From: Candidatus Phaeomarinobacter ectocarpi
GTDB lineage: Bacteria; Pseudomonadota; Alphaproteobacteria; CGMCC-115125
Direction of reading: 5' to 3'
Length of the DNA: 64,000 nucleotides
Assembly: GCF_000689395.1 (NCBI RefSeq)
Contig: NZ_HG966617.1
Location: forward strand, 1,487,274-1,551,273
Shown here piece after piece: positions 25,005 to 34,903 of this stretch; positions within the stretch are counted from its first letter, which is position 1, and each line of letters starts with the position of its first letter. Under the pieces are notes generated by a model. The model worked only from the letters and a program-made list of their open reading frames with translations, made no database searches and was not told the DNA's origin. Made by a program: the position numbers and the translations under genes.

Positions 25005-25032
25005 TGATCCAAATCGGGTCTCGAGCCGTAGA
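25005..25032 (+). promoter_or_regulatory. Candidate ECF11 (RpoE/ChrR-type) promoter for the photolyase operon
   Basis: TGATCC at 25005-25010, a 16-base spacer, then CGTAGA at 25027-25032. This fits the -35 TGATCC and -10 (CG)TAAG/TA-type pattern known for RpoE of Rhodobacter sphaeroides and ECF11 relatives. It lies 73 bases before the photolyase start and directly after proV. A copy with the same spacing lies at 33649-33676 on the minus strand. Confidence 0.65.
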
Positions 25033-25104: not shown

Positions 25105-26556
25105 TTGAGCAACGACCCCGCCATTGTCTGGTTCAGGCAGGATCTGCGTATTGCAGACAACCGGGCCCTGTCGGCTGCCGCAGCATCCGGGCAGCCGGTC
25201 ATCGCACTGTACATTCTCGACGATGAGACGCCGGGCGAGTGGCGCATGGGCGGGGCCAGCCGCTGGTGGCTGCACCACTCTTTGGCGTCGTTGACAGCTG
25301 ACCTTGATGGGCTTGACGCGCAACTGATCCTGCGCACGGGCAACGCGGCAGATGTGCTCAAGGACGTCGTCTCCCAGACCCAAGCCACAGCGGTTCATTG
25401 GAACCGGTTGTACGAGCCCTATGCCATTGCGCGGGACAAGGACGTGAAGGCTGACCTGCAGGCAATGGACATTGAGGTGACCAGTTACAACGCCAGCCTT
25501 TTGTTCGAGCCATGGACGGCAAAAACCAAGACCGGTGGACCCTATCGTGTGTTTTCGCCCTTCTGGCGCAATTGCATGCGAGAGCTGGACGCGCCGGATC
25601 ACCCAAAATCTGCGCCGAAAAAACTGACCTCTCTCAAGGACAGGCCGGCTTCTGACACGTTGGAAGACTGGCACCTACTGCCAACCAAGCCGGACTGGGC
25701 CGGCGGTCTGGAAGAGCAATGGTCGCCTGGCGCGACCGGCGCCGCCGCAAGACTGGACCGCTTTCTGGACAAGGCAGCTGGCGGTTACAAGGAAGGCCGC
25801 GACATGCCCGGTATTGATGGCACGTCCGGCCTGTCTCCCCATTTGCACTTTGGCGAAATCAGTCCCCGCCATGTCTACTGGGCGGCAAGGGCACATGCAG
25901 ACGAGTATCCGGCCCACTCAAAGAGCGTGGACAAGTTCGTTGCTGAACTTGGCTGGCGCGAATTTGCTTACCACCTGCTCTATCACTTCCCGAGCATTCC
26001 AACCGACAACTATCAGGACAAGTTTGACGATTTCCCCTGGCGCGAAGACGCAGACGGCCTCGCCGCCTGGCAACAGGGCATGACGGGATACCCCATGGTG
26101 GACGCCGGCATGCGTCAGCTCTGGCAGACCGGCTGGATGCACAACCGTGTACGGATGATCGTTGCCTCCTTCCTCGCCAAGCATTTGATGGTGCACTGGC
26201 GCGAGGGCGAAAGCTGGTTCTGGGATACCTTGGTGGATGCTGATCTGGCCGCCAATGCCGCCAGCTGGCAGTGGGTGGCAGGCTCCGGAGCGGATGCGGC
26301 ACCCTATTTCCGGATTTTCAATCCGATCACACAGGGAAACAAATTTGATCCGGATGGCGATTATGTTCGCAAATACGTGCCGGAACTTGCAAAACTACCC
26401 AACAAATATTTGTTCTCTCCCTGGACCGCTCCAGACGACGTGCTTGATCAGGCAGGCATTGTTCTGGGAACGGACTACCCACGACCCATTGTAGATCACT
26501 CAGACGCGCGCGAGCGTGCCCTGGGTGGATATAGCGACATCAAGAAGGCCAGCTGA
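25105..26556 (+). CDS. phrB: Deoxyribodipyrimidine photolyase (cryptochrome/photolyase family)
   Basis: FAD-dependent, light-driven repair of UV pyrimidine dimers, 483 residues. The N-terminal antenna domain opens SNDPAIVWFRQDLRIADN; the FAD domain shows LHFGEISPR, WREFAYHLLYHFPSIPTDNY, GMRQLWQTGWMHNRVRMIV and ASWQWVAGSGADAAPYFRIF, the classic CPD photolyase blocks with the tryptophan chain. The frame is open back to 24838, but those codons shadow proV. TTG at 25105 gives the N-terminus of close relatives (SNDPAIVWF); TTG at 25093 is an alternative. It is first gene of a six-gene oxidative/photo-stress operon. Confidence 0.94.
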   Translation: MSNDPAIVWFRQDLRIADNRALSAAAASGQPVIALYILDDETPGEWRMGGASRWWLHHSLASLTADLDGLDAQLILRTGNAADVLKDVVSQTQATAVHWNRLYEPYAIARDKDVKADLQAMDIEVTSYNASLLFEPWTAKTKTGGPYRVFSPFWRNCMRELDAPDHPKSAPKKLTSLKDRPASDTLEDWHLLPTKPDWAGGLEEQWSPGATGAAARLDRFLDKAAGGYKEGRDMPGIDGTSGLSPHLHFGEISPRHVYWAARAHADEYPAHSKSVDKFVAELGWREFAYHLLYHFPSIPTDNYQDKFDDFPWREDADGLAAWQQGMTGYPMVDAGMRQLWQTGWMHNRVRMIVASFLAKHLMVHWREGESWFWDTLVDADLAANAASWQWVAGSGADAAPYFRIFNPITQGNKFDPDGDYVRKYVPELAKLPNKYLFSPWTAPDDVLDQAGIVLGTDYPRPIVDHSDARERALGGYSDIKKAS

Positions 26557-26621: not shown

Positions 26622-27926
26622 ATGAAAATTGCAATTGCCGGAACTGGTATCTCCTCCAACGCAGCAGCCCACGTGCTGTCGCGTCATCACGAGGTGACGA
26701 TTTATGAAAAGCAGGACCGGATCGGTGGTCATTCAAACACGGTGGACGTGGACTATGATGGGGTGACCATCCCGGTCGATACCGGATTCATTGTCTACAA
26801 CGAGCACAATTATCCGCGCATGACGAAGCTGTTTGCCGAGCTTGGTGTGGAGACGCAGGACAGCGACATGAGCTTCGCTGTCTCCACCATGGGTGGCGCA
26901 TTCGAATGGTCCGGCCGCACGGTGCGCAGCGTGTTTGCCCAACGGCGTAATCTGTTCAGCCCGGGCTTCCTTTTCATGCTGCGGGAAATCTTCCGGTTCA
27001 ACCGCCTTGCCCGTGAGGATCTGGAGACAGGCCTCAAGGAAAGCGTGTCGCTTGGTGACTATCTTTCAAGCCACAAGTTTTCGGCACGCTTCAAGCGCGA
27101 TTATCTGTTGCCCATGGGCGCTGCTATCTGGTCCACACCTGCCAGTGAGATGCTGCTGTTCCCGGCACGCAGCTTTCTGGATTTCTTCCGCAACCACCGT
27201 CTTATTGACGAGGACCGTCCCCAATGGCGCACCGTCACGGGTGGCTCTCGCTCCTATGTCAAAAAGCTGACGGCTCCCTATGCCGACCGTATCCAGCTTG
27301 GTGTCGGCATTGCCAAGGTAACCCGGACCGATGGCCGCGTGCAGGTGACGGATACCAACGGCAAGACGGAGGAATACGATCACATCGTGATTGGGGCGCA
27401 TTCGGACGAAGCCCTGGCCATGTTGTCTGATGCGTCTGACGCTGAAAACAGGCTGCTTGGCGCCGTGCGCTACGGGCCCAACAAGGTCTATCTGCACCGT
27501 GACCCCGCGCTGATGCCACGCCGCCGGCGTGCCTGGTCTGCATGGAACTATCTGTCACCGGGCCGCATCGACAAGGGCAGTCACCTGTCGGTGACCTACT
27601 GGATGAACCAGCTTCAGGGCATTGATGAGAAGTATCCGCTGTTTGTGACGCTGAATCCGGTGGCCCCGCCCAAGGCAGAACTGACCTTTGCGGAACTGAA
27701 CTACGATCATCCGATGTTTGATGCGCAGGCGCTGGATGCCCAAAAGGAAATCTCATCTCTGCAGGGCCAGAGAAATACCTGGTTCTGTGGCGCGTGGCTT
27801 GGCTATGGATTCCATGAAGATGGATTGTCCTCCGGCCTGGATGTCGCTCAGATGTTGCTCGACGCCAATGCAGATGACACTGCGGCACCCGCAACCATCG
27901 AACCATTTGTCGAGGCCGCCGAGTGA
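26622..27926 (+). CDS. NAD(P)/FAD-binding oxidoreductase (COG2907)
   Basis: A 434-residue flavoprotein with the N-terminal dinucleotide-binding motif GTGISSNAAAHVLS and the second FAD segment GGHSNTVDVDYDGVTIPVDTGF, as in amine-oxidase-type and desaturase-type enzymes. It belongs to the COG2907 group that is nearly always found with DUF1365 and a cyclopropane-fatty-acyl synthase. In a few bacteria this trio has been linked to furan fatty acid or other modified lipid formation; the reaction here is not shown. It starts 65 bases after photolyase and overlaps the DUF1365 start (GTGA). Confidence 0.9.
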   Translation: MKIAIAGTGISSNAAAHVLSRHHEVTIYEKQDRIGGHSNTVDVDYDGVTIPVDTGFIVYNEHNYPRMTKLFAELGVETQDSDMSFAVSTMGGAFEWSGRTVRSVFAQRRNLFSPGFLFMLREIFRFNRLAREDLETGLKESVSLGDYLSSHKFSARFKRDYLLPMGAAIWSTPASEMLLFPARSFLDFFRNHRLIDEDRPQWRTVTGGSRSYVKKLTAPYADRIQLGVGIAKVTRTDGRVQVTDTNGKTEEYDHIVIGAHSDEALAMLSDASDAENRLLGAVRYGPNKVYLHRDPALMPRRRRAWSAWNYLSPGRIDKGSHLSVTYWMNQLQGIDEKYPLFVTLNPVAPPKAELTFAELNYDHPMFDAQALDAQKEISSLQGQRNTWFCGAWLGYGFHEDGLSSGLDVAQMLLDANADDTAAPATIEPFVEAAE

Positions 27927-28813
27927 CGGGCACCCTACCCACGCCTGCGATCAACGACCCGGCCGCCCGGTTGTATTTCGGGCGGGTCATCCACGCACGC
28001 TCGCGCCCGCGCAAGCATCGCTTTGCCTACAAGGTCTTTTCAATGCTGATCGACATCGATCGGCTTGAAGATGTGGCGAAGACCAGCACCTTGTTCTCCC
28101 TCGACCGCTTTAACCTGTTCAGCTTTCATCGCCGGGATCACGGTCCCAAAGACGGTAGCTCATTGCGCGCGCACATAGACACCCTGCTGGGTGATGCGGG
28201 CCTGCCGGCACCCGCCCAAATCAAGCTGCTCTGCTATCCGCGTATTCTTGGATATGTGTTCAATCCGCTGTCGGTCTATTACTGCTACGATGCTGCGGGC
28301 CAATTGTCCGTACTGGTCTATCAGGTCCACAACACGTTCGGCGACGTGCACAGCTACATCGCACCTGTTGCGGAGGCTGAGCAAAAAGGCCGCGTGGTGC
28401 ATCAGTCCCGGGACAAGAACCTGCACGTCTCGCCTTTCGTTGGCATGGCGGCGTCCTATCACTTTGCTCTGGATGACCCTGCAGAGACGATTGGCATCCG
28501 CATCCGTGAAACCGATGAAGACGGGCCCTTTCTACTGGCGACGTTTGACGGCAAGGCACGCGCATTTTCAACCGCGACGCTGGCCCTGGCGTTTGTCAAG
28601 TATCCCCTCATGACACTCAAGATTGTCGGCGCCATTCACTTTGAAGCATTGCGGTTATGGCTCAAAGGCGTGCCGTTTTTCTCAAGCCCGCTGCAGGCGC
28701 CCGCGCGGTCCAGTTTGGACGGTCCGTCGCAAGGGGCACGGGGAAATGCAATCGACCCTGCAAAGGCGCCCGAAAAACGCTATACTGATCCCGCGAAAAC
28801 AAAGGCAGCCTGA
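27923..28813 (+). CDS. DUF1365 domain-containing protein
   Basis: A 296-residue protein opening with the family's LYFGRVIHARSRPRKHRFAYKVF and containing LLCYPRILGYVFNPLSVYYCYD and QVHNTFGDVHSYI, the most conserved DUF1365 blocks. The Ser/His/Tyr-rich pattern hints at an enzyme of unknown reaction working on membrane lipids along with its two flanking genes. It starts with GTG overlapping the COG2907 stop and ends five bases before the cyclopropane synthase, so all three are likely made together. Confidence 0.93.
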   Translation: MTGTLPTPAINDPAARLYFGRVIHARSRPRKHRFAYKVFSMLIDIDRLEDVAKTSTLFSLDRFNLFSFHRRDHGPKDGSSLRAHIDTLLGDAGLPAPAQIKLLCYPRILGYVFNPLSVYYCYDAAGQLSVLVYQVHNTFGDVHSYIAPVAEAEQKGRVVHQSRDKNLHVSPFVGMAASYHFALDDPAETIGIRIRETDEDGPFLLATFDGKARAFSTATLALAFVKYPLMTLKIVGAIHFEALRLWLKGVPFFSSPLQAPARSSLDGPSQGARGNAIDPAKAPEKRYTDPAKTKAA

Positions 28814-28818
28814 GCGAC

Positions 28819-30078
28819 ATGACTACCACCGATATGTCAGATGTTGCCGCGCAGGGACGCCCTGCGCCCGTTGTGGCAACCCCGGAAGTTCTGGACGGTC
28901 TGTCTGGTGTGCCGCGTCTCGTGCGCTTTTCATTGCGCATGCTCCTCAATATCCAAAGCGGCAGCCTGACAGTCCGCTTGCCGGATCAAGCGCCCTTGCG
29001 ATTTGAGGGCAAGGAACCCGGCGACCAAGGCGAAGTGGAACTGAAGCACTATCGTGCTGTGCGCAGGCTGCTGGCCGGCGGCGGCATCGGTTTTGGAGAG
29101 GCCTACATTGCTGGCGACGTGGACTCGCCCGATATGGCGAAGTTCCTGGAAGTGTTTGCGCGCAACCGGACCATGATGCTGCAGGCGTTGCGCATGGGGC
29201 TTTTTGACTGGGTGAACAAGCTCTATCACAAGCTTCACAAGAACACGCGCAAGGGGTCCGAGCGCAACATACATGCCCATTATGATCTGGGCAATGAGTT
29301 CTATGGCCTTTGGCTTGATCCGACGATGACCTATTCGTCCGCGATTTTTAAGCCCGGCATGAACGATCTGGCCTCAGCTCAGCGTGAAAAATATCGCGCG
29401 CTGGCTGACAGCATGCAGCTGGAAGCCTCTCACCACGTGCTGGAAATCGGCTGCGGCTGGGGTGGCTTTGCGGAATATGCGGCCGGCGAAATCGGCTGCC
29501 GTGTCACCGGCATCACCATCTCCAAGGAGCAATTAGAGTTTGCCCGCGAGCGCGTGCAGCGCGCCGGGCTGAGCGACAAGGTCGAGATCCGCTACCAGGA
29601 TTATCGCGACGTCAGCGAGACGTTTGACCGGGTTGCCTCGATCGAGATGTTTGAAGCGGTTGGCGAGGATTATTGGCCAACCTACTTCCAGCAGGTCCGC
29701 AACGTGCTCAAGCCCGGCGGCAAGGCCGGCTTGCAGATCATCACCATTGCGGATGAAGCCTATGAGGATTATCGCAATACGGCGGACTTCATTCAGCGCT
29801 ACATATTCCCCGGTGGCATGCTTCCCTCGCCTACGGCCCTGCGTGACCAGATCAGCAATGCGGGACTGGTTCTGACCGGTAACCGGGAATTTGGACGTGA
29901 CTACGCCCGCACCCTGCGCATGTGGCAGGAGAGTTTCGCTGAAGCATGGCCGAAGATCGAACCGCTTGGATTTGACGAGCGGTTCAAGCGGCTCTGGCAC
30001 TTCTATCTGGCCTATTGCGAGGCTGGCTTCAGTTCAGCCAATACCGACGTGACCCAGGTCACACTAGCGCGCGCCTGA
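28819..30078 (+). CDS. cfa: Cyclopropane-fatty-acyl-phospholipid synthase family protein
   Basis: SAM-dependent methyltransferase of the Cfa family, 419 residues. An N-terminal lipid-binding domain (about 1-130) precedes the SAM site VLEIGCGWGGFAEYA and the conserved RNIHAHYDLGNEFYGLWLDPTMTYS and IEMFEAVGEDYW segments. It methylates double bonds of membrane phospholipid acyl chains, giving cyclopropane or, in some clusters, methylated intermediates. In Rhodobacter a cfa gene is a direct target of the singlet-oxygen sigma factor, matching its place here behind the candidate ECF11 promoter. Confidence 0.94.
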   Translation: MTTTDMSDVAAQGRPAPVVATPEVLDGLSGVPRLVRFSLRMLLNIQSGSLTVRLPDQAPLRFEGKEPGDQGEVELKHYRAVRRLLAGGGIGFGEAYIAGDVDSPDMAKFLEVFARNRTMMLQALRMGLFDWVNKLYHKLHKNTRKGSERNIHAHYDLGNEFYGLWLDPTMTYSSAIFKPGMNDLASAQREKYRALADSMQLEASHHVLEIGCGWGGFAEYAAGEIGCRVTGITISKEQLEFARERVQRAGLSDKVEIRYQDYRDVSETFDRVASIEMFEAVGEDYWPTYFQQVRNVLKPGGKAGLQIITIADEAYEDYRNTADFIQRYIFPGGMLPSPTALRDQISNAGLVLTGNREFGRDYARTLRMWQESFAEAWPKIEPLGFDERFKRLWHFYLAYCEAGFSSANTDVTQVTLARA

Positions 30079-30087
30079 TCTCATCTG

Positions 30088-31425
30088 ATGTCCCCCCGCA
30101 CATCGACCTTCTGGTGGTACGCACTGCCGGGCCTTCCGCTCGCAGCACTTACGTTGCCGGTTTATGTGTTTGTGCCGGCCTTTTATGCCGAGCTTGGCGT
30201 GTCTCTCGCATTGATCGGCACGGTGCTGCTCGGCGTCCGGCTGCTGGACGCGGTTTCTGATCCCGCCATCGGCTTTTTGAGCGACAGACTTCGCCTTCCC
30301 GGCGGCCGCCGAAAGCCTTGGATGTTTGTGGGCCTAGTCCCCACCATGCTTGCGGTCTGGATGGTGTTCGTCCCGTCAGATACGCCGTCAGCAACCTATC
30401 TGTTTGTCTGGAGCGCGGTGCTGTCGGTTGGCTGGACCCTGATGATCCTGCCCTACAATGCGTGGGGCGCCGAACTGGCAGACGACTACGACGGTCGCAC
30501 GGCAGTCACCGCGCGACGCGAAGGCATGGTTGTGGCGGGCACGTTGCTGGCCACCGCAACGCCGGCCGTGCTGGCCGCGCTGGGGGTGATCGGAACGGCC
30601 GCCGCCCTTGAGATACTCGCGCTTGGTTTGGTTATCCTCCTGCCACTGACAGTTGCCCTGTGCCTGTGGCGCGTTCCCTCACCGCCGGACAAAAGTCATC
30701 AGCGGGTGGCGCTGGGCGCCGGTTTGCGGGCGATCGGGGCAAACAAATCCTTCGTACGGCTTGTCTCCGCCTATCTCATAAACGGGTGGGCCAACGGCCT
30801 GCCTGCAACCCTGTTTGTGCTCTTCGTCACCCACGTGCTTGTGGCACCTGAAATGGTTGGCCCGCTATTGTTCCTCTATTTCCTGTCCGGCGTGCTCGCC
30901 ATTCCCGGCTGGGTCTGGCTGTCGCGTCGATGGAGCAAGCATCGCGTCTGGGTCGGCTCGATGACGCTCGCCTGTGCGACGTTTATCTGGGTGCCATTCC
31001 TGGGCGCAGGCGATGTCCTGTGGTTCGCCGTGATCTGCGTGCTGTCGGGCTTCGCGGTCGGGGCTGACCTTGTGCTGCCGGCCGCCATTCAGGCAGACGT
31101 GGTGGATGTGGACACAGCTGACACCGGTGAACAGCGCACGGGTCTCTACTTCGCGCTCTGGAGCCTGGCCACAAAGCTCTCATTGGCGCTGGCGGCAGGC
31201 GTCGCCTTTCCCCTTCTTGCCTTTGTGGGCTTTCAGGCGGATACCGTTCCTGGCCTCGACAGCACCAACACAAATGGAAGTTTATTCGCTGTTTCAATGC
31301 TTTATGCCGGTTTGCCGGTGATCCTAAAGCTGCCAGCGCTCGTACTTATGTGGAATTTTCCATTGAGCCGGGAAGCTCAGGAAGACTTGCAGGCGCGGAT
31401 TTCAGCGGCTGCGTCCCCTTCCTGA
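30088..31425 (+). CDS. MFS transporter (glycoside-pentoside-hexuronide-type)
   Basis: A 445-residue inner-membrane carrier with about twelve helices. The loop between helices two and three reads RLLDAVSDPAIGFLSDRLRLPGGRRKPW, the signature of the GPH/MelB-like group, and TVLLGVR precedes it. Such carriers move sugars or other solutes with cations, but members located in COG2907-DUF1365-cfa clusters have no known substrate. ATG at 30088 follows the cfa stop by nine bases. Confidence 0.9.
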   Translation: MSPRTSTFWWYALPGLPLAALTLPVYVFVPAFYAELGVSLALIGTVLLGVRLLDAVSDPAIGFLSDRLRLPGGRRKPWMFVGLVPTMLAVWMVFVPSDTPSATYLFVWSAVLSVGWTLMILPYNAWGAELADDYDGRTAVTARREGMVVAGTLLATATPAVLAALGVIGTAAALEILALGLVILLPLTVALCLWRVPSPPDKSHQRVALGAGLRAIGANKSFVRLVSAYLINGWANGLPATLFVLFVTHVLVAPEMVGPLLFLYFLSGVLAIPGWVWLSRRWSKHRVWVGSMTLACATFIWVPFLGAGDVLWFAVICVLSGFAVGADLVLPAAIQADVVDVDTADTGEQRTGLYFALWSLATKLSLALAAGVAFPLLAFVGFQADTVPGLDSTNTNGSLFAVSMLYAGLPVILKLPALVLMWNFPLSREAQEDLQARISAAASPS

Positions 31426-31473
31426 TCCAATTGCGGGCCCCGGCCCCGTCAGTGGACGAGTGTGAGCTGCCTC

Positions 31474-31971
31474 ATGAGTGAGAACAGACATTACGAAGAC
31501 GCAGAAGCTGCATCGGGCCTCGAGTTGCGTCTCGAAGAGTTTTTTGACGGGTCGCTCGACGCACAGGGTGAATTCCGTGATCCCTTCGGTCGGGTGCGCA
31601 GGACATTCCACGCTCATGTCACCGGCAAGCGCGAGGGGGACACCATCCGTATCCATGAAAAATTCCACTATCACGACGGTGAAATTGATGAACGCGAATG
31701 GGTGATCCGTGCCCACGGCGATGGACGTTATACGGGCGAAGCAACAGACGTTGTGGGAGTGGCTGAAGGCAAGGTGGAAGGGCCCCGCCTGCGCTGGTCC
31801 TACCCGATTGACCTGCCCATTGGTGGCCGCGCATGGCGGCTCAACTTCGACGACGAGTTCGAGCTGTGCGAGCCGGATGCGCTGGTCAATACGGCGAGTG
31901 TAAAGAAATTTGGTCTGCCCTTCGGCACCGTCCGTCAGACGATTTCACGCCGGACGTCTTCCAGCAGCTAG
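31474..31971 (+). CDS. DUF3833 family protein
   Basis: A 165-residue protein with the DUF3833 pattern: LEEFFDGSLDAQGEFRDPFG, VTGKREGDTIRIHEKFHYHDGE, RRYTGEATDVVG-like GDGRYTGEATDVVG, LRWSYPIDLPIGGRAWRLNFDD and NTASVKKFGLPFG. Many DUF3833 members are lipoproteins, yet this one has no signal peptide or lipobox from the ATG at 31474 (or from the GTG at 31462), so it appears cytoplasmic. It ends the photolyase operon and stops four bases before the convergent SDR gene. Its role is unknown. Confidence 0.85.
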   Translation: MSENRHYEDAEAASGLELRLEEFFDGSLDAQGEFRDPFGRVRRTFHAHVTGKREGDTIRIHEKFHYHDGEIDEREWVIRAHGDGRYTGEATDVVGVAEGKVEGPRLRWSYPIDLPIGGRAWRLNFDDEFELCEPDALVNTASVKKFGLPFGTVRQTISRRTSSSS

Positions 31972-31974
31972 GCG

Positions 31975-32793
31975 CTACGCGTCGCCGGTGGGTATGTCCG
32001 GCGTCGTGTCCGGGTCAGCCCAGCCTGTCAGCTTTCGCACGAGAGCCAGCCGCCATGTAGTTGGCAGGTAGTCCAGAGCTTTGAGAACATAGGTAAAGCG
32101 ACGCGGGAACGTCAGTTCAAACCGTGTCGATGCCAATCCATCAACAATCCGGTCGGCAGCATCCTTTGATGCCATCAAGGCCGGCATCGGGAACGGATTG
32201 TTCTTTGTTGCCGGCGTGTCGATGAATCCCGGATTGACGACCTGAACCAGCAGGCCAATCGGATCAAGTTCGATGCGCAACGTCTCTGCCAGATTGATGA
32301 GCGCCGCCTTGCTGGCTCCGTATGCGGAGCTTGTGGGCAGCCCGCCATATCCTGTGACCGACGCCACCAGCGCGATCTGGCCCTTGCCCCGCGTCTTCAT
32401 GGACGCGATGGCTGGTTCCAGACAGTTGGCCACACCAACAAGGTTGACGTCGAAGGTCGATTGAAAGGCGTCCGCCTTGAAATTGCGCGCATCGATTGGC
32501 TTGAACACACCGGCGTTCAACACGCACAGCGCCACCTTGCCAAACTGATGTTCGACACGCTGGACGATGCTTTCCATCGCGGTCTTGTCTGAGACATCCC
32601 CAGCAAAGGGGCGGATCTGTCCTGGGAGGTCTTTGCTTAGCTCTGCCAGCTCAGCGAGCTCGCCGACGCGGCGAGCTGTGGCGATAACCTGCCAGCCATC
32701 CGCTGCCAGCCTCAGAGCCACATCCCGGCCAATGCCCGAGCTGGCCCCTGTGACCCATGCCACGCCATCTTCTTTTGTTACCGGGTCAGCCAT
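31975..32793 (-). CDS. SDR family NAD(P)-dependent oxidoreductase
   Basis: Short-chain dehydrogenase, 272 residues. The Rossmann motif is WVTGASSGIGRDVALRL (about 13-29), NAG appears in CVLNAGVF and the catalytic tetrad region is ASVTGYGGLPTSSAYGASKAAL with Tyr and Lys spaced by three. SDR genes of this type recur in the RpoE/ChrR gene neighbourhood. It is 67 bases behind the ChrR-like gene on the same strand and convergent with the DUF3833 gene, so a two-gene minus-strand operon is likely. Confidence 0.92.
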   Translation of the reverse strand: MADPVTKEDGVAWVTGASSGIGRDVALRLAADGWQVIATARRVGELAELAELSKDLPGQIRPFAGDVSDKTAMESIVQRVEHQFGKVALCVLNAGVFKPIDARNFKADAFQSTFDVNLVGVANCLEPAIASMKTRGKGQIALVASVTGYGGLPTSSAYGASKAALINLAETLRIELDPIGLLVQVVNPGFIDTPATKNNPFPMPALMASKDAADRIVDGLASTRFELTFPRRFTYVLKALDYLPTTWRLALVRKLTGWADPDTTPDIPTGDA

Positions 32794-32860: not shown

Positions 32861-33535
32861 CTAAAGCAATGACTGGAAAATCCGGCCGATGCGCCCTGTC
32901 AGCTTCATTGGAGCCTCAGTGACCGCAAAGCAGATGCAGGTCTCGCCGCGTTCAGCAATGGGTTTGTGATCCACCGCATCGTCAGCAAGTTCCAGATCGC
33001 CGGGGCCAAAGCGGCCCGCGTCATCCGAATAGGCACCCTGAACGACCAACGTCGCTTCCATGCCCTCATGGGTGTGCTGGGGAACGGCCTTGCCCGGTTC
33101 GATACGCAACAGACGCGCGACGATACCCTCATCCTCAAATTCCTTGAGGCGATACTCGTAGGCGCCGATGCCCCGCCACTTCCACGCGATGTCAGACAGT
33201 GGCTGTCCCACAGCATGCGTCAGGGATGCAGGCAGAGGGCTTGGTGTAGGGCGCGGTGAAACGATAGGCGCTGTGGCCGTGAGCGTGTCGCCCTCTTCAA
33301 GCTGCGCCAGAAGAGCGTCCGCAGACTGTGCCCGCATGCTGACCGGCTCCGCCCGCTCCAGTGACCAACCGCCGACCTGTTCGATCCGGTCAGCCGTATG
33401 GCGCTGCTGCGGGTTCATCTCGAGATAGGTCTCTGCGAGGAGCGCTGCCGCTCTGGGCAACTGACCAAGCGCATACTGCGAGATCAACCAGTCAACACTT
33501 GGTGCGGATCGGGGTGTATGGGGCATGTGCTGCAT
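32861..33535 (-). CDS. ChrR-like cupin protein with degenerate anti-sigma zinc site
   Basis: A 224-residue relative of ChrR, the zinc-dependent anti-sigma factor that releases RpoE upon singlet oxygen. The N-terminal anti-sigma fold (about 14-80; WLISQYALGQLPRAAALLAE) aligns well, but the four zinc ligands of ChrR (His, His, Cys, Cys) fall at P12, Y37, N41 and Q44, so the site is lost. The C-terminal cupin domain (about 115-215) keeps its metal ligands H154, H156, E160 and H190 (VPQHTHEGME, VDHKPIA). No sigma factor gene is adjacent. It may act as a cupin sensor without zinc-clasped sigma binding. A start at codon 4 (33526) is also possible. Confidence 0.82.
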   Translation of the reverse strand: MQHMPHTPRSAPSVDWLISQYALGQLPRAAALLAETYLEMNPQQRHTADRIEQVGGWSLERAEPVSMRAQSADALLAQLEEGDTLTATAPIVSPRPTPSPLPASLTHAVGQPLSDIAWKWRGIGAYEYRLKEFEDEGIVARLLRIEPGKAVPQHTHEGMEATLVVQGAYSDDAGRFGPGDLELADDAVDHKPIAERGETCICFAVTEAPMKLTGRIGRIFQSLL

Positions 33536-33648: not shown

Positions 33649-33676
33649 GATACGGCCACATAAGCTGTTTGGATCA
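33649..33676 (-). promoter_or_regulatory. Candidate ECF11-type promoter for ChrR-like gene and SDR
   Basis: Reading leftward, TGATCC (33676-33671), 16 bases, then CGTATC (33654-33649). It shares TGATCCAAA and the exact spacing with the element at 25005. It would start transcription near 33640, about 105 bases before the ChrR-like ATG. Confidence 0.62.
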
Positions 33677-33883: not shown

Positions 33884-34903
33884 ATGACATCTGCAACACC
33901 CGGGATCAGGAACGGCATTGTCGATGCCATCGGCAACACTCCTCTCATTCGCCTCAAAAAGGCCTCTGAGGAAACCGGCTGCGAAATTCTGGGCAAGGCG
34001 GAATTCATGAACCCCGGCCAGTCGGTCAAGGACCGGGCCGCTCTCTTCATCATTCAGGATGCCATCAAGTCCGGCCGTCTCCAGCCCGGCGGCACAATTG
34101 TCGAAGGCACAGCCGGCAACACCGGCATCGGCCTTGCGCTGGTTGGCAACGCGCTTGGGTTCAAGACCGTGATCGTGATCCCGGAAACCCAGACCCAGGA
34201 AAAGAAAGACATGTTGCGTCTGGCGGGTGCCGAACTGATTGAAGTCCCAGCGCTGCCGTACAAGGACCCCAACAACTACGTGAAATATTCCGGTCGTCTG
34301 GCAGAAGAGCTGGCCGCCAAGGAACCCAAAGGCGCAATCTGGGCAAACCAGTTTGACAACGTCGCCAATCGTCAGGGCCATGTGGAAACCACAGCACCCG
34401 AAATCTGGGAGCAGACAGATGGCAAGGTCGATGGGTTCATTTGTGCCGTCGGCACCGGCGGCACACTGGCAGGCGTCGCCATGGGCCTGCGCGAAAAGAA
34501 GAAAGACATCACCATCGGCATCGCCGACCCCATGGGGGCCGCGCTCTACAACTATTATGCGAACGGAGAACTCAAAGCCGAGGGCACATCCATCACTGAG
34601 GGCATCGGTCAGGGTCGCATCACGGCCAACCTTGAAGGCCTCAAGGTGGACGAAGCATTCCAGATACCAGACGAAGAAGCCCTGCCCGTTGCCTTTGACC
34701 TGCTGGAACACGAAGGACTGTGTATGGGCTCCTCAAGCGGCGTGAACGTCGCCGGTGCCATGCGGCTGGCGAAGAAGATGGGGCCTGGCCATACGATTGT
34801 GACCATCCTGTGTGACTTCGGCACGCGCTACCAGTCCAAGATGTTCAACCCGGCCTTCCTTAAGGAAAAGGGACTTCCCGTTCCCGGTTGGCTGGACAAG
34901 TAG
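33884..34903 (+). CDS. cysK: Cysteine synthase A
   Basis: PLP enzyme making cysteine from O-acetylserine and sulfide, 339 residues. The PLP lysine is K49 in NPGQSVKDRAA, the substrate loop is EGTAGNTGIGLA, and the PLP phosphate loop reads VGTGGTLAG. GAGGAA precedes the ATG with good spacing. It is directly followed by a 3-mercaptopyruvate sulfurtransferase gene with no gap, linking cysteine synthesis and sulfane sulfur metabolism. Confidence 0.95.
   Translation: MTSATPGIRNGIVDAIGNTPLIRLKKASEETGCEILGKAEFMNPGQSVKDRAALFIIQDAIKSGRLQPGGTIVEGTAGNTGIGLALVGNALGFKTVIVIPETQTQEKKDMLRLAGAELIEVPALPYKDPNNYVKYSGRLAEELAAKEPKGAIWANQFDNVANRQGHVETTAPEIWEQTDGKVDGFICAVGTGGTLAGVAMGLREKKKDITIGIADPMGAALYNYYANGELKAEGTSITEGIGQGRITANLEGLKVDEAFQIPDEEALPVAFDLLEHEGLCMGSSSGVNVAGAMRLAKKMGPGHTIVTILCDFGTRYQSKMFNPAFLKEKGLPVPGWLDK

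Follow-up and report, generated by a model that had tools for sequence, protein, structure and literature searches.

Can a ChrR-type anti-sigma factor operate without the zinc site of its anti-sigma domain (ASD), and on a sigma factor encoded elsewhere in the chromosome? This question is raised by a gene in a 64,000-nucleotide stretch of the Candidatus Phaeomarinobacter ectocarpi genome (hereafter, the window), whose product the initial annotation described as a ChrR-like protein that has lost every zinc ligand of the ASD and has no sigma partner. No strand was given there; the open reading frame is on the minus strand (33535..32861; Table 1). The family assignment is borne out by a full-length match to the ChrR model TIGR02451 (162 bits, cut-off 124.5) and by a phmmer alignment over nearly the whole length with R. 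sphaeroides ChrR (2z2s_B, E 6.6e-38). Against the ChrR equivalog model NF051881 the window protein scored 138 bits, below the cut-off of 300 bits, which was also missed by the sigma-adjacent copy of the same genome (139.5) and by a Roseibium copy (131).

Table 1. Features at the chrR locus, in window coordinates.
Feature	Coordinates	Strand	Basis or remark
Trans (unlinked) ChrR, 224 aa	32861..33535	minus	TIGR02451, 2z2s_B, AF2 model
ASD, aa 12-66	33338..33502	minus	Ungapped 2Z2S alignment; pLDDT 95-98 over helices; dN/dS ~0.05-0.15 where estimable
Replaced zinc-ligand codons	P12 33502-33500, Y37 33427-33425, N41 33415-33413, Q44 33406-33404	minus	
Cupin domain, aa 116-206	32918..33190	minus	Pfam Cupin_7, 51 bits; metal ligands H154, H156, E160, H190 intact
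SDR oxidoreductase, probable second gene of chrR transcript	31975..32793	minus	Pfam adh_short; 67 bp downstream, same strand
Photolyase/cryptochrome	25106..26556, start approximate (ORF opens 24838, homology from ~25120)	plus	NCBIfam
FAD-dependent amine-oxidase-like protein, RpoE target cluster	26622..27926	plus	
DUF1365 protein, RpoE target cluster	27923..28813	plus	Pfam DUF1365, 260 bits
Cfa-like methyltransferase	28819..30078	plus	Pfam CMAS
MFS transporter	30088..31425	plus	Pfam MFS_2
DUF3833 protein	31462..31971	plus	Pfam
cysK, divergent neighbour marking conserved insertion site	33884..34903	plus	NF007989, 582 bits
Predicted RpoE (ECF11) promoter of chrR-SDR pair	33651..33676	minus	TGATCC-N16-CGTA; in all 4 congeners
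Predicted RpoE promoter before photolyase-to-DUF3833 run	25005..25030	plus	TGATCC-N16-CGTA
Third TGATCC-N16-CGTA site, before DUF3833	31319..31344	plus	

Through the ASD, the alignment with 2Z2S is ungapped and places P12, Y37, N41, and Q44 of the window protein at the zinc ligands H6, H31, C35, and C38; the ZAS pattern H...Hx3Cx2C is absent, and the ASD contains no cysteine. The only two cysteines of the protein, C200 and C202, are both in the cupin, which makes a shifted Cys-bearing zinc site impossible, and with the ASD histidines (H3, H6, and H46) not conserved in three congeners, shifted zinc ligands are ruled out. In the cupin, H141, H143, E147, and H177 of 2Z2S correspond to H154, H156, E160, and H190. 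The ligand positions of four Phaeomarinobacter species read PYNQ, PYNQ, PYNM, and PYNK, all four ligands being lost in each, and this agreement, together with the purifying selection described below, rules out a sequencing error or a pseudogene. Both parts of the annotated picture, complete ligand loss in the ASD and a preserved cupin site, thus hold, and the loss withstood the two objections named against it, shifted ligands and sequence error.

Identity among the four congeners is 58-87% in the ASD and only 17-35% in the linker, and the dN/dS of the ASD, ~0.05-0.15 where estimable and with synonymous sites near saturation, is similar to that of the cupin. By these measures, purifying selection acts on the ASD, and the linker is drifting. 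An AlphaFold2 (AF2) model of the window protein, based on 68 aligned ChrRs, has a mean pLDDT of 91, rising to 95-98 in the helices of the ASD; among PDB structures, it matches best the ChrR chains of 2q1z (TM 0.82, normalized by target length) and 2z2s. Its helices at 14-22, 28-40, 42-61, and 69-81 are predicted to form a class I ASD fold of the ChrR/RseA type. Among 36 ligand-less ChrRs encoded away from a sigma gene (orphans), the position of C35 is occupied by serine, asparagine, or threonine in 32, followed by proline (P36) in 21; in the model, N41 directly precedes helix 42-61. It is reasonable to infer from the model that a helix N-cap could replace the zinc knuckle at the C35/N41 position.

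There are precedents for ASDs that dispense with zinc. RseA and RskA reside in the membrane and carry different sensory domains, whereas the window protein has the soluble layout of ChrR and keeps the cupin. What these class I proteins share with it is a helical ASD; in RseA and RskA this domain inhibits an ECF sigma factor without zinc (PMC6852236, PMC7406223), as is predicted for the window protein, and RseA does so with a similar fold (PMC6852236). In other ECF groups, ASDs that lack zinc are common (~44%; PMC7406223). In Bacillus subtilis RsiW, zinc can likewise be dispensable for ECF binding by this domain (PMC7406223), although RsiW, unlike the window protein, retains the zinc motif and is membrane-bound.

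The window chrR lies between a divergent cysK upstream and an SDR gene downstream, with no sigma gene adjoining. Four congeners share one site, at which cysK, chrR, and SDR are followed by convergent genes for photolyase, FAD oxidase, DUF1365, Cfa, MFS, and DUF3833 proteins; one of them, G003, is a short contig on which the locus is only partly covered. Together with the SDR gene and the TGATCC-N16-CGTA motif, this cluster constitutes the gene context of an ECF11 RpoE-ChrR regulon. A similar gene set in R. sphaeroides, the operon RSP1091-1087, is a target of RpoE, and the breakdown of ChrR under singlet oxygen depends on its products (PMC3818230, PMC6852236). At most loci with an unlinked chrR, cysK adjoins it and the chrR-SDR order is retained, and the window gene is one of the unlinked chrR-SDR pairs located between cysK and a furan-fatty-acid/photolyase sigma-E target cluster in Stappiaceae, Hyphomicrobiales, the PS1 clade, and Phaeomarinobacter.

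The Phaeomarinobacter genome encodes exactly one ECF11-type sigma factor, at 3101883-3102485 of the contig, and a search of the genome with this RpoE gave no other match below 1e-12. Directly behind it lies a gene for a second full-length ChrR (3101205-3101822), and this rpoE-chrR pair, which the initial annotation had suggested looking for, is the one found in the genome. The window chrR, 1.6 Mb from rpoE, does not follow it directly. With one ECF11 sigma and two ChrRs in the genome, the window ChrR is unlinked from, rather than without, a possible partner; the annotated lack of a sigma partner is correct for the adjoining genes and misleading beyond them, the likely partner being unlinked. 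The rpoE-adjacent ChrR (L038 3167-3877, G000 contig ~3.10 Mb) reads R/H/C/A and has itself lost two of the four ligands, and its counterpart in the sister species G001 (L035 5275-5982) reads Q/Q/R/I, with all four gone. The two copies separate in the ChrR tree, and a recent duplication of the rpoE-adjacent gene is an unlikely source of the window copy by this quick tree. The same genome also encodes a separate 228-aa ChrR-cupin-like protein with no recognizable ASD and apparently two cupin halves (L003 1159-1845, G000 contig ~2.88 Mb), and similar tandem weak cupin matches occur in other genomes of the class.

We scanned public genomes, which yielded 80 named loci and a survey set of 127 distinct ChrRs; because relatives of the window protein were used to seed the set, its proportions are not those of nature. 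A sigma gene adjoins 87 of the 127, of which 76 have all zinc ligands (one with an unread residue) and 11 do not, and the remaining 40 comprise 4 with zinc ligands and 36 without. Ligand loss is thus not peculiar to orphans, since 11 sigma-adjacent ChrRs, the one in this genome included, are degenerate, and the cupin ligands are HHEH in all 127. The ligand-less orphans occur in Roseibium, Labrenzia, Stappia, Pannonibacter, Hansschlegelia, Hyphomicrobiales, Beijerinckiaceae, and PS1-clade or Rhodobiaceae genomes, and most of the 36 have the setting of cysK, chrR-SDR, and cfa cluster in common. All 20 orphan genomes that were searched whole encode a single full-length ChrR, the ligand-less orphan, and a single ECF11 sigma with 51-61% identity to Phaeomarinobacter RpoE, the next ECF sigma reaching at most 39%; four further genomes (G021, G152, G329, and G191) give the same picture. 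Of 385 genomes in the class, 140 have both ChrR and an ECF11 sigma, 7 have ChrR only, 6 the sigma only, and 232 neither. In one genome (G039, assembly 84% complete), a FAD-oxidase gene adjoins the gene of a ChrR that retains every zinc ligand (L026), and no ECF11 sigma was found at 1e-35.

In most orphan genomes the solitary rpoE is located between rlmN-ialB and trmL-qor, and no chrR or recognizable anti-sigma gene was found beside it at loci L193-L212 or L178-L184. The ialB gene adjoins an intact rpoE-chrR pair in 24 of the 87 sigma-adjacent loci, and by this comparison the solitary rpoE at the ialB site of orphan genomes has probably lost its adjacent chrR. In another genome (G308), an rpoE-chrR pair with the degenerate ligands IHRT is directly joined to the SDR/DUF3833/cfa cluster (L228).

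The predicted promoter of the window chrR matches the R. sphaeroides RpoE promoter, TGATCC(N15)GCGTA (PMC5036791), except for the base preceding CGTA. Upstream of unlinked chrR genes, TGATCC-N16-CGTA was found in 28 of 40 cases, always with a spacing of 16 (shuffled mean, 0.05), and it precedes 46 of the 87 paired rpoE genes. Before the rpoE genes of orphan-bearing genomes, Phaeomarinobacter included, it was found in 0 of the 30 examined (loci L178-L184 and L193-L212 among them). The presence of the motif before orphan chrRs and its absence before their rpoE genes imply a putative rewired loop, in which RpoE would drive its own brake instead of amplifying itself from TGATCC-N16-CGTA. The Phaeomarinobacter genome has 11 such sites, some of them within genes, which makes single sites weak, and the weight rests on conservation. 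One of the 11, a perfect RpoE-type promoter, lies upstream of an rpoH-type sigma-32 gene (L157 1501-2505, G000 contig ~2.70 Mb), which suggests that a cascade from RpoE to RpoHII is kept in Phaeomarinobacter; rpoHII is an RpoE target in R. sphaeroides (PMC6852236). The motif was found in none of eight PS1/Rhodobiaceae-type orphans (L189, L190, L191, L101, L102, and L121 among the loci), nor within 16 kb around three of them, and the sigma of this type may read another promoter.

The successive steps of a series in gene position and ligand state (INTERMEDIATES) are still present among genomes. Cis and trans copies both have HHCC in G045 and G343, and both are degenerate in Phaeomarinobacter and in G125 (ECKV, EHSS); a trans copy is the only one, with HHCC, in G070, G083, G096, G205, G296, and G373, and is the only one, degenerate, in Stappiaceae and others. 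Since trans-only copies with HHCC and ligand-less paired copies both exist, zinc loss as a mere result of unlinking was rejected. The trans-only HHCC copies further suggest that it is the trans protein that does the work of ChrR. In the four two-copy lineages, a small number, both copies are concordant in having or lacking the full zinc site, which suggests that the cause of the loss lies outside the single gene. A distinct clade of ligand-less ChrRs, for which the initial annotation had proposed a phylogeny, finds partial support: the quick tree itself splits the orphans, with poorly supported deep branches, and, compared with the unconstrained quick search, holding all 27 ligand-less orphans as one clade improved the likelihood by 69.6. 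Adding three unlinked HHCC orphans (f94) to the constrained clade gave a likelihood 65.8 higher. In this tree, weak at depth, a single origin of the ligand-less orphans is favoured by the higher likelihood.

From these genome comparisons, we regard the window ChrR as probably a functional zinc-independent anti-sigma factor, one that is induced by the unlinked RpoE, restrains this sigma factor in trans, and senses through its cupin. Among the three options offered by the initial annotation, this one is the best supported by the constraint on the ASD and by the 20 genomes in which an orphan is the only ChrR and faces one unlinked ECF11 sigma. The ASD would fold and hold the sigma factor without bound zinc, acting on the sole ECF11 sigma, RpoE, encoded at the conserved site between rlmN-ialB and trmL. 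The chrR and SDR genes would be transcribed together from an RpoE promoter, so that active RpoE would yield more of its ChrR brake, a negative feedback unmatched by autoregulation of rpoE. Under singlet oxygen or peroxide, RpoE would be set free via the intact cupin metal site and the adjoining RSP1091/1090-like genes, not via ASD zinc chemistry. In many related genomes the orphan would do this as the only ChrR; in Phaeomarinobacter it would work beside the rpoE-adjacent ChrR, which may share or lead the task, and, with that copy retained, the window ChrR may be redundant there.

A second-tier role, another of the annotated options, may also hold in this genus: the rpoE-adjacent ChrR would be the actual brake, leaving the window copy as a weak or specialized paralogue, such as an arm for shut-off or a sink attuned to a different oxidant. 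Two ChrRs serve one sigma here, and only the window copy is preceded by an RpoE promoter, but the other genomes examined have no full-length ChrR apart from the corresponding unlinked copy, and both copies of the genus are degenerate in their ligands, so neither is the obvious canonical one; we consider this reading unlikely. It is far less plausible that the protein is a sensor or enzyme operating by the cupin only, with a relic ASD that no longer binds a sigma factor. Such a role would suit the loss of all ASD zinc ligands beside invariant cupin ligands, yet the ASD is constrained about as much as the cupin, unlike the drifting linker, the presence of ChrR is tightly coupled to that of an ECF11 sigma across genomes, and ligand-degenerate ChrRs also directly adjoin rpoE. 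Least credible of all is an anti-sigma factor for an ECF sigma outside ECF11, for which the missing sigma neighbour and the additional ECFs of some genomes could be cited, since one ECF11 sigma, which would otherwise be devoid of a ChrR, occurs in each of the 20 orphan genomes, and an ECF11 promoter usually precedes the orphan itself.

The zinc-independent anti-sigma factor proposed here resembles R. sphaeroides ChrR (2Q1Z, 2Z2S; ECF11) as a full-length two-domain homologue in predicted fold, cupin ligands, RpoE promoter motif, and RSP1091-1087-type target cluster. It differs in that its ASD has no zinc site, that it is unlinked from rpoE and has its own predicted RpoE promoter, and that its rpoE lacks that promoter. 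ChrR, zinc-less ASDs, and ECF11 regulons are already known; our searches of the open full-text literature turned up no account of an unlinked ChrR lineage that lacks the ligands and has this circuit, and a chrR without rpoE is mentioned, ambiguously, for Rhizobium etli (PMC3818230). Tentatively, and as a serious possibility, we extend the proposal to a whole ChrR lineage without ASD zinc, in which a helix cap would stand in for the zinc knuckle, sensing would use the cupin metal only, and the autoregulated rpoE-chrR operon would have been rewired into a non-autoregulated rpoE and an RpoE-induced brake elsewhere. Zinc loss in both copies would then suggest that the change occurred on the side of the sigma factor or of the signal, and the classical ASD zinc would be structural, not a singlet-oxygen sensor.

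A ligand-less ChrR lineage that keeps the cupin and the regulon provides a natural test of the role of ASD zinc in singlet-oxygen sensing: if these bacteria still induce RpoE under singlet oxygen, oxidation of that zinc is not required. The extant intermediates indicate that a sigma/anti-sigma operon can be dismantled and rewired into separate loci. In this scenario, the window ChrR would have moved from the rpoE locus into the gene set of RpoE itself, an arrangement found in many alphaproteobacteria.
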